Positions 52,450 to 55,612 of a stretch of DNA of 64,000 bases are shown here, piece after piece (the first letter of the stretch is position 1; each line of letters opens with the position of its first letter). This stretch comes from Runella defluvii. GTDB taxonomy: Bacteria > Bacteroidota > Bacteroidia > Cytophagales > Spirosomataceae. Location of the stretch: NCBI RefSeq assembly GCF_014195535.1, contig NZ_JACIBY010000001.1:871748-935747 (forward strand), in the 5' to 3' direction. The notes beneath the pieces were generated by a model that saw only the letters and a list, made by a program, of their open reading frames with translations, was not told where the DNA came from and searched no databases. Made by a program: the position numbers and the translations under genes.

Positions 52450-53058
52450 ATGAAGCCAATAGAAACCTCATCGTCACAAGTGGATAGTCAGCTATGGTCC
52501 CAGTTGCAAAATGGGAGCGAATGGGCGTTGGGAAGGCTCGTCAAAAAATATTTCAATCCTTTACAAAACTACGGGTGCAAGTTTGTGCAATCCGAAGATT
52601 TTGTAAAGGATTGTGTCCAAGAGGTATTCATTGAAGTGTGGCAACGCCGCGAACGCCTCAGCACTCCCGTGAGTGTCAGGGCGTATTTGTTGAGTTCGGT
52701 ACGAAAAAAAGTGCTGAGGGAAGGCTTTCGGCAACGAATTTTGAAGGATGAACAACACGAAATCGACACCATCTTGGATTGGCATTCACAAGAGCTTCCG
52801 CACGAATGGGCGATTATTGAACAGGAAAACGTTGAATTGTTGACACAGAAAATCACGATTCTATTGGATAAACTGCCCAAAAGGCAGCGGGAGGTTATCT
52901 ATTTGCAGTTTTATCAAAACCTGAATCGAGACGAAATTGCGCAGATAATGGAGATAAACCCACAGTCGGTTTCCAATTTGGTACAGTCAGCGTTGAAAGT
53001 ATTTCGTACCCATTGGCAAGTGATTCAGGTGTTGTTGGGGGTAATTTTATTCCATTGA
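52450..53058 (+). CDS. ECF sigma factor (FecI-like), SusC/D-associated
   Basis: 202 residues. Region 2: CVQEVFIEVWQRRERLSTPVSVRAYLLSSVRKKVLR; region 4: LDKLPKRQREVIYLQFYQNLNRDEIAQIMEINPQSVSNLVQSALKVFR. It is the FecI-type Bacteroidota ECF factor. Normally the FecR partner follows immediately; here it is 1.47 kb away because a repeat array and a transposase lie between. The 13-bp gap to GH88 suggests co-transcription with that enzyme. It should activate the SusC/D genes. Confidence 0.92.
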   Translation: MKPIETSSSQVDSQLWSQLQNGSEWALGRLVKKYFNPLQNYGCKFVQSEDFVKDCVQEVFIEVWQRRERLSTPVSVRAYLLSSVRKKVLREGFRQRILKDEQHEIDTILDWHSQELPHEWAIIEQENVELLTQKITILLDKLPKRQREVIYLQFYQNLNRDEIAQIMEINPQSVSNLVQSALKVFRTHWQVIQVLLGVILFH

Positions 53059-53073
53059 CAGTTTGTAAGATGT

Positions 53074-53946
53074 CAGGGCTAGGCCCCTAGATTGTCAATT
53101 GTGTTGCGATTTTCTACGAAGATTTAGGGGGCTACGCCCCTGAAAACGAGGAAAAATATGAACGAAATTAGGGGCGTAGCCCCGCAATCTTAATAGAACG
53201 CGAGGCAAAAAAAATAAACAAAAAAGGGGCGTTAGCCCTGCAATCTTCGTAGCAAATATGCCAAGGCTACGCCCCTAGCGTGTCAATAGGGTTGCGATTT
53301 TCTACAAAGATTTAGGGGGCTACGCCCCTGAAAACGAGGAGGAAATATGAACGAAATTAGGGGCGTAGCCCTGCAATCTTCGTAGAAAGCGCGGCAAAAA
53401 AATAAACAAAAAAGGGGCGTTAGCCCTGCAATCTTCGTAGCAAATATGTCAGGGTTAACGCCCCTAACGTGTCAATTGGGTTTCGATTTTCTACGAAGAT
53501 TTAGGGGGCTACGCCCCTGAAAACAAGGAGGAAATATAAACAAAAAAGGGGCGTTAGCCCTGCAATCTTCGTAGCAAATATGTCAGGGCTAATGCCCCTA
53601 GCGTGTCAATAGGGTTTCGATTTTCTACGAAGATTTAGGGGGCTACGCCCCTGAAAACGAGGAAAAATATGAACGAAATTAGGGGCGCAGCCCCGCAATC
53701 TTCGTAGCAAATATGTCAGGGCTAACGCCCCTAGATTGTCAATTGGTTTGCGATTTCTACGAAGATTTAGGGGGCTACGCCCCTGAAAACGAGGATGAAA
53801 TATGAACGAAATTAGGGGCGTTAGCCCCGCAATCTTCGTAGAACGCGAGGCAAAAAAATAAAAAAGGGGCGTAGCCCTGCAATCTTCGTAGAACGCGCGG
53901 CAATAAAAATAAACAAAAAAGGGGCGTTAGCCCTGCAATCTTCGTA
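53074..53946. repeat. Array of long palindromic repeat units
   Basis: At least five units begin with TTTCTACGAAGATTTAGGGG at 53111, 53299, 53488, 53622 and 53754 (spacing 188, 189, 134 and 132 bp; single-base variants occur). The best unit (53755-53843) pairs TTCTACGAAGATT with AATCTTCGTAGAA and an inner GGGGCTACGCCCC with GGGGCGTTAGCCCC. Between units lie smaller palindromes of the type AGGGCTAACGCCCCT. The array starts about 15 bp after the sigma stop and runs up to the transposase start. It has no fixed repeat/spacer layout, so it is not a CRISPR. Confidence 0.9.
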
Positions 53947-54408
53947 ATGGCAAATACATATACGCAATTGTATATTCAGTTTGTTTTTTCCGTGCAAGGA
54001 CGGCAAAACCTCATTAAAGAATCAATCAGAGATGAATTGGAGAAGGTCATGTGCGGCATTGTTACTAACCAGAAATGCAAAACATACGCTATTTATTGTA
54101 ACCCTGATCACACTCACATTTTTGTAGGAATGCACCCAACTGTTTCTCCTTCTAAATTGATGGAACAGGTTAAATCAGGTTCATCAAAGTGGTTGAACGA
54201 TAAAAAAAACATTGTTGGAAAATTTGCTTGGCAAGATGGATATGGAGCTTTTACCTATTCCAAATCACAAATTGACAATGTTGTAAAGTACATCCTAAAC
54301 CAGCCAGAACACCACAAAAAACAGTCATTTAGAGAGGAATATCTATTGTTTCTTGAAAAGTTTGGGGTGGATTATGACCCTAGATATGTATTTGAATGGT
54401 ATGATTAG
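53947..54408 (+). CDS. IS200/RAYT-type Y1 transposase (TnpA)
   Basis: 153 residues of the Y1 HUH superfamily: the metal-binding His pair in CNPDHTHIFVGM (His55/His57), the nucleophile Tyr115 and Gln119 in VVKYILNQPEHHKK, and the preceding WQDGYGAFTYSKSQ. It cuts single-stranded DNA at hairpins. It is complete, and the ATG follows the last array unit directly (AATCTTCGTA-ATG). Related TnpA-REP (RAYT) enzymes mobilise REP palindromes. No TnpB gene is present. Confidence 0.9.
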   Translation: MANTYTQLYIQFVFSVQGRQNLIKESIRDELEKVMCGIVTNQKCKTYAIYCNPDHTHIFVGMHPTVSPSKLMEQVKSGSSKWLNDKKNIVGKFAWQDGYGAFTYSKSQIDNVVKYILNQPEHHKKQSFREEYLLFLEKFGVDYDPRYVFEWYD

Positions 54409-54529
54409 ATATACCCCTTTGGGCTACATCCATCCCGATACCTTTGTAAACCTTGTAAAAAAAATGAAGAAGAAAGGAGTATATTGGTTGGTTTAGCGCC
54501 ATCTGATAGAAAAACATGCCTATTACCCA

Positions 54530-55612
54530 ATGAATTATTACCGCTCGTATCAGTTAGAAGACTTTGCCCGCGACGAATCGTTTCGTCAGTGGGTGCTGGA
54601 ACACGAGCCTAATAATACCCAATTTTGGCAACAGTGGCTTGCCGAAAACCCCGACTGCCGCGAAAAAGTCCATTTGGCGAAGGCGTTTTTGTTGGCCTTA
54701 GAAGAAAATGAAACCAACTTGCCAGAGTTGGAATTAGACGCCATTACAGAGCAGATTCTCCAAGCCCCTCCGCAAACTTCGTCTCCGTTTTGGCAGTTTC
54801 CGCTGTTCCAATGGGCGGCTTCTATCATCCTGCTTTTGGGCGTGGGGTGGGGTACATATTCTTATTTTCGACCTAGCACCTTGGCGCTTCATGACAGCAA
54901 AACGGTCGTAGCTTTCAAAGATGATTATCTCGAACAGACCAATCAAACCGACCGCGTTCAGAAAATTTCGTTGCAAGATGGAAGTACGATTTCGCTCTAT
55001 CCCAAGAGCCGAATTCGGTACCCACAGCCTTTTCGTGCCCAACTGCGCGAGGTCTATTTAGAAGGGAAAGCTTTTTTTGACATTACGAAAAATCCCCAGC
55101 AGCCGTTTTGGGTTTATACCGACTATATTTCTACCCAAGTACTAGGGACGAGCTTTATGGTTCAAGCATTTTCGGAGGCCGATGAGGCCAAAGTGGTGGT
55201 GAAAACAGGGCGGGTATCGGTTTATACCCGAAAAGACCTAGAAAAAGCCACAACAACCCAACAAGCGGTGAAAGCGGGAGTGGTGCTTACCCCTAACCAG
55301 CAAGTAGCTTTTTCGATACCCGAAAAACGCTTTTTGAAATCGATTGTGGAAGCGCCCGCCGCAGTTGTACAGACACCCGTTAGTAGCTATTCGTTTGAGG
55401 AAACGCCTGTTAGCCAGGTGTTTGATTTGATAGAAAAAACCTACGGCATCTCCGTGATTTATGATGCCAAAGTCCTCGAAAATTGCTTCCTGACGGCTAC
55501 ACTTTCCGACGAGTCGCTGTTTGATAAACTTGACCTTATCTGCAAAATCACGCATTCGACCTACGAAATCGTTGATGCTCAAATCATTATCCATAGCCGA
55601 GGGTGTAAATAG
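54530..55612 (+). CDS. FecR-family anti-sigma factor
   Basis: 360 residues. An N-terminal cytoplasmic sigma-binding region, one membrane helix near 100 (WAASIILLLGVGWGTYSYF), and the periplasmic FecR domain (KISLQDGSTISLYPKSRIRYP, EVYLEGKAFFDITKNPQQPF, VLGTSFMVQAF) followed by a C-terminal domain (SYSFEETPVSQVFDLIEKTYG). It transmits the signal from the SusC STN domain to the sigma factor. It lies 1.47 kb from its sigma partner and 80 bp before susC. Confidence 0.93.
   Translation: MNYYRSYQLEDFARDESFRQWVLEHEPNNTQFWQQWLAENPDCREKVHLAKAFLLALEENETNLPELELDAITEQILQAPPQTSSPFWQFPLFQWAASIILLLGVGWGTYSYFRPSTLALHDSKTVVAFKDDYLEQTNQTDRVQKISLQDGSTISLYPKSRIRYPQPFRAQLREVYLEGKAFFDITKNPQQPFWVYTDYISTQVLGTSFMVQAFSEADEAKVVVKTGRVSVYTRKDLEKATTTQQAVKAGVVLTPNQQVAFSIPEKRFLKSIVEAPAAVVQTPVSSYSFEETPVSQVFDLIEKTYGISVIYDAKVLENCFLTATLSDESLFDKLDLICKITHSTYEIVDAQIIIHSRGCK

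Follow-up and report, generated by a model that had tools for sequence, protein, structure and literature searches.

We analysed a 64,000-nt stretch of the Runella defluvii genome (contig NZ_JACIBY010000001.1, positions 871,748 to 935,747), here called the window. Within it, an array of short hairpins runs into the start codon of a gene for a single-strand (Y1/HUH) transposase. Array and gene lie between a FecI-like extracytoplasmic function (ECF) sigma factor gene and a FecR-like anti-sigma factor gene, which is followed by a gene for a TonB-dependent, SusC-like receptor. Bit scores in the following list refer to R1, our covariance model of the hairpin unit.

52450..53058, + strand: ECF sigma factor (FecI-like; PF08281/PF04542), left neighbour of the insertion
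53070..53946, no strand: hairpin array of about 0.88 kb (repeat, tandem-array, palindrome-count and folding evidence)
53109..53147, - strand: unit, reverse (24.9 bits)
53164..53201, + strand: unit, forward (31.4 bits)
53220..53257, + strand: unit, forward, 4-nt loop (24.2 bits; training row, shifted by one)
53297..53335, - strand: unit, reverse (26.7 bits)
53353..53390, + strand: unit, forward (32.6 bits; training row, shifted by one)
53408..53445, + strand: unit, forward, 4-nt loop (24.2 bits)
53486..53524, - strand: unit, reverse (24.9 bits)
53542..53579, + strand: unit, forward, 4-nt loop (24.2 bits)
53620..53658, - strand: unit, reverse (24.9 bits)
53675..53712, + strand: unit, forward (32.7 bits)
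53752..53790, - strand: unit, reverse (22.5 bits)
53809..53846, + strand: unit, forward, 4-nt loop (22.1 bits)
53859..53896, + strand: unit, forward (31.5 bits)
53914..53951, + strand: last unit, forward, recognised by sequence (row 1 of alignment A2; no R1 match at E<=1)
53947..54408, + strand: Y1/HUH transposase of 153 aa, TnpA-Y1 subclass 1.2-like (PF01797, motifs and fold)
54530..55612, + strand: FecR-like anti-sigma factor (PF04773/PF16344 and gap comparison), right neighbour of the insertion

Chance does not account for the array. A 114-nt repeat occurs five times at 53083-53840 (spacings 188, 189, 134 and 133), and tandem arrays span 53070-53946. The 14-nt palindrome GGGGCTACGCCCCT, with up to two mismatches, has 11 matches in the window, all at 53075-53878, where 0.19 would be expected. 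Folded as a single strand, 53070-53946 has an energy of -210.1 kcal/mol compared with -113.9 +/- 4.55 for 20 shuffles (z = -21). These results confirm the palindromic array described in the first-pass annotation, but not its units with 30-bp stems: the long arms (30-33 nt, 79-83% complementary) are inverted pairs of smaller units. R1 has 13 matches in the array, eight forward (+) and five reverse (-), and three window units sat among its 100 training rows. The array also abuts the start codon of a complete transposase gene, as had been claimed. The last unit overlaps the ATG of the 153-aa open reading frame, which replaces the final G of the unit's NTAG (TA-ATG), giving ...GCAATCTTCGTA-ATG. 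An extra repeat, an imperfect hairpin of the AGGGCTAACGCCCCT type, occurs five times at 53067-53724 (spacing 188, 188, 134, 133); it interleaves with the units and is unmatched by the unit model.

We defined the unit by comparing 80 homologue loci, 79 from named records (many of them metagenome-assembled) plus the window. Each unit consists of a 13-nt hairpin (5-bp stem, 3-nt loop) and a 13-nt tail of 9 nt followed by NTAG. Hairpin density within 800 nt of the gene is about 12-fold that beyond 2 kb, the far regions being unmatched for coding content. When each near hairpin was read on both strands, offset 10 after the stem was by far the commonest start of TAG, with 139 of 652 readings; no other offset between 0 and 25 exceeded 14. 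When the tail alone was searched for, 82 sites lay within 1 kb of the gene: 42 of them had a perfect 5-bp hairpin at exactly the expected spacing, and 61 had four or five stem pairs; perfect hairpins accompanied 1 of 15 tails between 1 and 2 kb and 0 of 17 beyond 2 kb. Stem sequences (GCTCC, GCCCC, GCCTC, GTCCC, ACCCC, GGGGC and others) vary between and sometimes within loci, with pairing maintained, and all five stem pairs of A2 covary strongly with changes on both sides. Among 147 units with TAG at offsets 9-11, those upstream are mostly forward (53 versus 25 backward) and those downstream mostly backward (41 versus 28 forward), so the gene tends to sit between inverted copies. The same architecture is shared among families of Bacteroidota and also appears in two contigs from other phyla, one assigned to Ignavibacteriota and one to Chloroflexota, both metagenome-assembled and possibly misbinned.

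The position of the hairpins bears on whether they act in RNA, controlling the transposase mRNA or the sigma/FecR pair, and not as a DNA substrate. At 15 of 81 loci the nearest hairpin ends 7-13 nt upstream of the start codon, where it could block translation. However, hairpins also begin 4-9 nt past the stop codon (28 counts), and some units and arrays are far away from any such gene. A search of 12 loci against Rfam matched no family to the units at the gathering score; only a tRNA in L120 passed. We regard a purely regulatory role as improbable.

The transposase matches PF01797 (E=1.7e-27), carries the motifs DHTH, WQ and YILNQPEHH, and is under strong purifying selection. Its predicted structure has the TnpA fold, with IS200/IS605 TnpA proteins as best matches. 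Y...Q..HH at the catalytic tyrosine, present in the window enzyme as YILNQPEHH, occurs in 79 of 79 intact homologues, a count biased by a search pattern that itself contained HH; WQ is found in all 79 and DHxH in 75. By its sequence, the enzyme fits TnpA-Y1 subclass 1.2. In Quentin et al. 2018 (PMC6006769), this subclass is reported without repetitive extragenic palindromes (REPs), and it shares with the window enzyme DHxH, WQ, Y...Q..HH, a length of about 150 aa, low copy number and occurrence in Bacteroidota. The window enzyme has WQ, and its DHTH carries T for the I or V of the published DH[IV]H. Copy number in the genome is low, with two matches that are mutually 51% identical.

The first-pass annotation had called the enzyme RAYT-like (REP-associated tyrosine transposase). 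A classical RAYT/REP system would pair a class 2 transposase with GTAG-footed REPs, and we consider this highly improbable here. The enzyme has YILNQ, with Y...Q..HH in place of Y...NP; GT[AG]G is missing from the hairpin foot, the TAG peak lying at offset 10 from the stem; and the best structural matches are to IS200/IS605 TnpA. RAYT membership was rejected on the motif and the tetranucleotide position. The resemblance lies in organization. As described in two papers on REPtrons and REPINs (PMC3116915, PMC8266576), REP/RAYT systems also combine a low-copy Y1 gene with adjoining inverted hairpin repeats, cluster these in tandem near the gene and have a repeat type of their own for each gene. 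The window system differs in its class 1 enzyme, in stems whose sequence varies while pairing is kept, and in an NTAG 9 nt past the 3' foot where REP/RAYT systems have GTAG at the 5' foot. The GTAG- and CGTC-tagged palindromes of a published survey (PMC3733652) are likewise short hairpins with a conserved end motif, but the window-type motif is set apart from the stem. That survey covers GTAG repeats in Proteobacteria, Cyanobacteria, Chloroflexi and the Planctomycetes-Verrucomicrobia-Chlamydiae group, and reports CGTC repeats, without a transposase, also in Bacteroidetes.

We used R1 to examine the association of unit and enzyme. R1 was built from 100 units; 15 of 112 candidates were dropped by eye and three window units added. 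The dropped candidates were mostly chance-like, with a few near-duplicates or atypical sequences, and R1 thus reflects our choice. At E<=0.05, R1 found units in 27 of 29 further loci, or 24 of 26 without the three that share sequence with the training set, and in 13 of 17 loci from the window's genus, none of which shares sequence with it. The genus has 20 clade A loci; the 17 exclude the window's own locus and a frameshifted copy that is in two pieces. In the homologue search, 2 of 32 matches had no locus. The window gene and most of the relatives tested lie amid hairpin units, whereas subclass 1.2 is described in PMC6006769 as having no REP-like sequences. The units contradict this published observation, not the sequence motifs of the subclass.

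R1 matched none of the control loci, 19 FecR paralogues from the genus (77 kb), and none of 10 loci of a divergent enzyme clade that is 30-38% identical to the window enzyme (34 kb). Clades A and B were divided by eye on N-terminal sequence, and the enzyme tree was built without clade B. Divergent-clade proteins start like MPY[IV]KVWIHFVW or MAFVKIWIHAVW, and window-type units are absent from their loci. Flanks of six of these loci (L027, L034, L035, L042, L044, L047) contain hairpins with TTTA or TAAA loops; at L042 an inverted pair brackets the gene (CTCCAGC-TTTA-GCTGGAG upstream, CTCCAGC-TAAA-GCTGGAG downstream), and none were seen at L043, L045 and L046.

We extended the comparison to 149 genomes of the class, taking strong matches as clade A by E-value alone. 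R1 counts per genome are lower bounds, with at most 45 or 150 candidates scored in each. Of the 43 genomes whose homologue scored E<1e-60, at least 41 had units; the figures were at least 6 of 10 for a homologue at 1e-60 to 1e-55 and at least 7 of 36 for a weaker one. Across 66 loci, enzyme distance correlated with unit-tail distance (Mantel r=0.31, p=0.0002) and with hairpin distance (r=0.21, p=0.001); GC difference did not correlate with the unit tail. Outside the genus, the window enzyme has its closest relatives, 80-84% identical, in Bacteroidales, Chitinophagales and Psychroflexus; the tail of their units is ATCTTCGTAG or a near variant, which suggests that the enzyme and its unit travel together. 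On a Bernardetia plasmid, units adjoin a homologue annotated as an IS200/IS605 transposase; a Persicobacter plasmid carries a more distant homologue (37% identical) without units. The association between unit and enzyme is real and not due to chance.

The first-pass annotation had proposed a search for further copies of the unit in the genome. Exact window units are private to the window locus, and the second homologue has its own array with a different stem. Family-level units are widespread: at E<=1, R1 gave at least 121 matches in at least 64 clusters, two of them at Y1 genes, which leaves at least 62 further clusters, 23 of these adjoining repeats of miniature inverted-repeat transposable elements (MITEs). 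Complete elements with the terminal repeat AGGTTRAACGCATT are flanked by 9-bp target duplications in seven of eight cases, four of them exact, which makes movement by a DDE-type transposase probable. The MITE family, with elements of 128-228 bp and the terminal repeat YAGGTTRAACGCATT (L197, L199, L203, L205, L210, L212, L221, L222; 9-bp target duplication in seven of the eight), encloses an inverted pair of hairpin units. In genome G017, four elements (L223, L224, L226, L228) have outer inverted repeats like GACTGTTTAAATTT with hairpin units within; L223, L224 and L226 are near-alike, and L225 and L227 have equal model scores. These elements are apparently another MITE that has taken up units.

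These elements suggest that the units could belong to DDE-moved MITEs and that the Y1 gene landed by chance in a unit-rich place. The proximity of 23 of the 64 clusters found to a AGGTTRAACGCATT repeat, the target duplications and the different outer repeats in G017 all favour this view. However, no AGGTTRAACGCATT repeat with up to two mismatches is present at 52900-54600, and the same holds for 20 of the 21 loci with units in G015, G066, G107, G073 and G160, other outer repeats being possible in both comparisons. The unit also tracks the enzyme clade across genomes and hosts. A chance landing is a remote prospect on this evidence, and we reject AGGTTRAACGCATT MITE transposition as the chief origin of the window array, where the MITE repeat is missing.

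Unit arrays also exist far from either Y1 gene. Four tandem arrays (L263, L264, L265 and L279), with no nearby Y1 gene, have stems that are near-uniform within an array and differ between arrays (GTCTC, GCCTC, GCATC and GCTTC), as if each had been homogenised on its own. All five arrays compared differed in unit number among sister genomes (6/2/1, 6/1/3, 4/2/0, 3/1/0 and 2/1/6 units in G000/G005/G002); for the two zeros the flanks aligned in part, and the first array in G000 includes a run of N. The unit at the single-unit site L270 is also present in G005. That genome has at least 21 units at E<=0.01, yet no homologue was found in it. G007 carries a homologue at another site (L022), where no units were detected, and its genome contains at least one unit.

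We conclude that array and gene probably form a REPtron-like locus, in a group without a known REPtron, and that the unit is the likely cognate of the enzyme. Judged from sequence comparison, TnpA-Y1 subclass 1.2 most plausibly has its REP equivalent in this unit. The architecture, the pairing kept despite sequence change, the association with one clade, the co-divergence and the array-size differences among sisters were computed directly; that the enzyme binds or moves the unit, and that the locus works like a REPtron though not through a RAYT, we infer. The earlier proposal that the transposase made or spreads the units is partly supported: clade association and co-divergence tie the two together, though not in a RAYT/REP mode. 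The enzyme would bind the folded hairpin on single-stranded DNA, and linker and NTAG may set the geometry of cutting, by analogy with IS608 and ISDra2 TnpA at element ends. The stem would be read mostly as structure, letting its sequence drift while pairing stays. Joining of unit to unit would allow arrays to grow, shrink or be replaced, and might occasionally carry gene and units into a new host. A last hairpin 7-13 nt before the start codon may damp translation of the enzyme itself.

Several results weigh against this interpretation. Of the 64 clusters found, 23 are no more than 150 bp from a copy of the terminal repeat AGGTTRAACGCATT (0-1 mismatch), and 39 have neither a MITE repeat nor a Y1 gene beside them. 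Units occur in at least 5 of 60 survey genomes with no homologue, and no units were detected in 6 of 53 genomes with a strong homologue, the scoring being a lower bound. R1 had no match at 4 of the 17 same-genus loci (L022, L026, L038, L039), and the pattern test found no unit at 14 of the 80 loci. The genomes are related and share history, so the survey p-values (e.g. 4e-19), Fisher and Mantel alike, overstate independence and with it the evidence. Enzyme distance also correlates with locus GC difference (r=0.19, p=0.0008). The stem covariation is partly circular, since A2 rows were chosen for pairing, and guide or cleavage covariation between NTAG and other unit positions gave weak signals consistent with lineage effects, none of them clear. 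Array size was rejected as a measure of enzyme activity, as it does not track enzyme intactness in the three sisters. G002 is larger at one array, and its window-site enzyme has a stop codon, with other homologues in that genome.

If the REPtron-like reading is true, a subclass described as REP-less has a partner, with a geometry unlike that of known REPs. The natural series of stems, changed in sequence and kept in pairing, would test what a Y1 enzyme reads, and two enzyme clades with different hairpins would open swap experiments. The units could also account for unnamed hairpin repeats of Bacteroidota genomes. We found no description of subclass 1.2 hairpins in the literature searched, most subscription journals lying outside the search, which leaves novelty unproven. 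Five unit sequences were sought in paper texts, and the matches examined were unrelated by title.

We compared the insertion site in related genomes. The sigma-FecR gap is 1475 nt in the window's genome and 105, 105, 105, 105, 105, 110 and 112 nt in seven genomes of the genus with an orthologous FecR (60-65% identical), which upholds the claim that an insertion splits the pair. The window's ECF sigma factor is 97-98% identical to its counterparts in G002 and G005. G002 keeps the array, and its gene is interrupted by an in-frame stop (gap 1851). G007 retains a remnant of the array and a gene with an internal deletion (gap 376). In G005 a scar of 23 nt is left, an exact match to the start of the window's gene (its first 23 nt; gap 160). 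On the simplest reading, the insertion predates the split of the window's genome, G002, G007 and G005 and is intact in the window's genome only.

This decay in relatives would suit a degenerating IS200/IS605 insertion sequence with tandemly duplicated end hairpins and functionless units, as would the class 1 enzyme and the hairpins near both gene ends at some loci. We think this unlikely. The near-identical mobile copies typical of IS200/IS605 are absent from the genome, which has two copies 51% identical; the gene is under strong purifying selection; and the architecture recurs in Bacteroidota families and in the two possibly misbinned contigs. In contrast to IS608 and ISDra2, the window units are inverted and multiplied into arrays, and genome copies are few and divergent.

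The G000 and G002 enzymes at the sigma/FecR site are sisters in the tree (99/84). Their synonymous divergence (dS) is 1.72, roughly fivefold the values for sigma (0.36) and FecR (0.28). Within the first 72 nt of the gene, 61 of 68 aligned positions match the remnant in the more distant G007 and 58 of 72 match G002. The G007 remnant (72 nt) and G005 scar (23 nt) are thus nearer the window version than G002 is, over short stretches only. The simplest reading is that array and gene were replaced in the G002 lineage; array-directed homing would be a bold version of it. More broadly, subclass 1.2 might own a superfamily of units read by geometry (stem, 9 nt, NTAG) instead of stem sequence, in Bacteroidota and at least two further phyla, with arrays serving as landing pads for an incoming enzyme-plus-array by recombination. 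The dS contrast between enzyme and flanks fits this idea, which we hold as doubtful. Comparison of G002:C9:119282 with the window revealed no clean empty site.

The first-pass annotation had also suggested that the array changes expression of the sigma/FecR pair, and our analysis gave no support for this. Between transposase and FecR, at 54418-54446, we picked out by eye TTTG-17 nt-TACCTTTG, which we take to resemble the Bacteroidota -33/-7 promoter. A promoter serving FecR itself may thus lie on the downstream side of the insertion.
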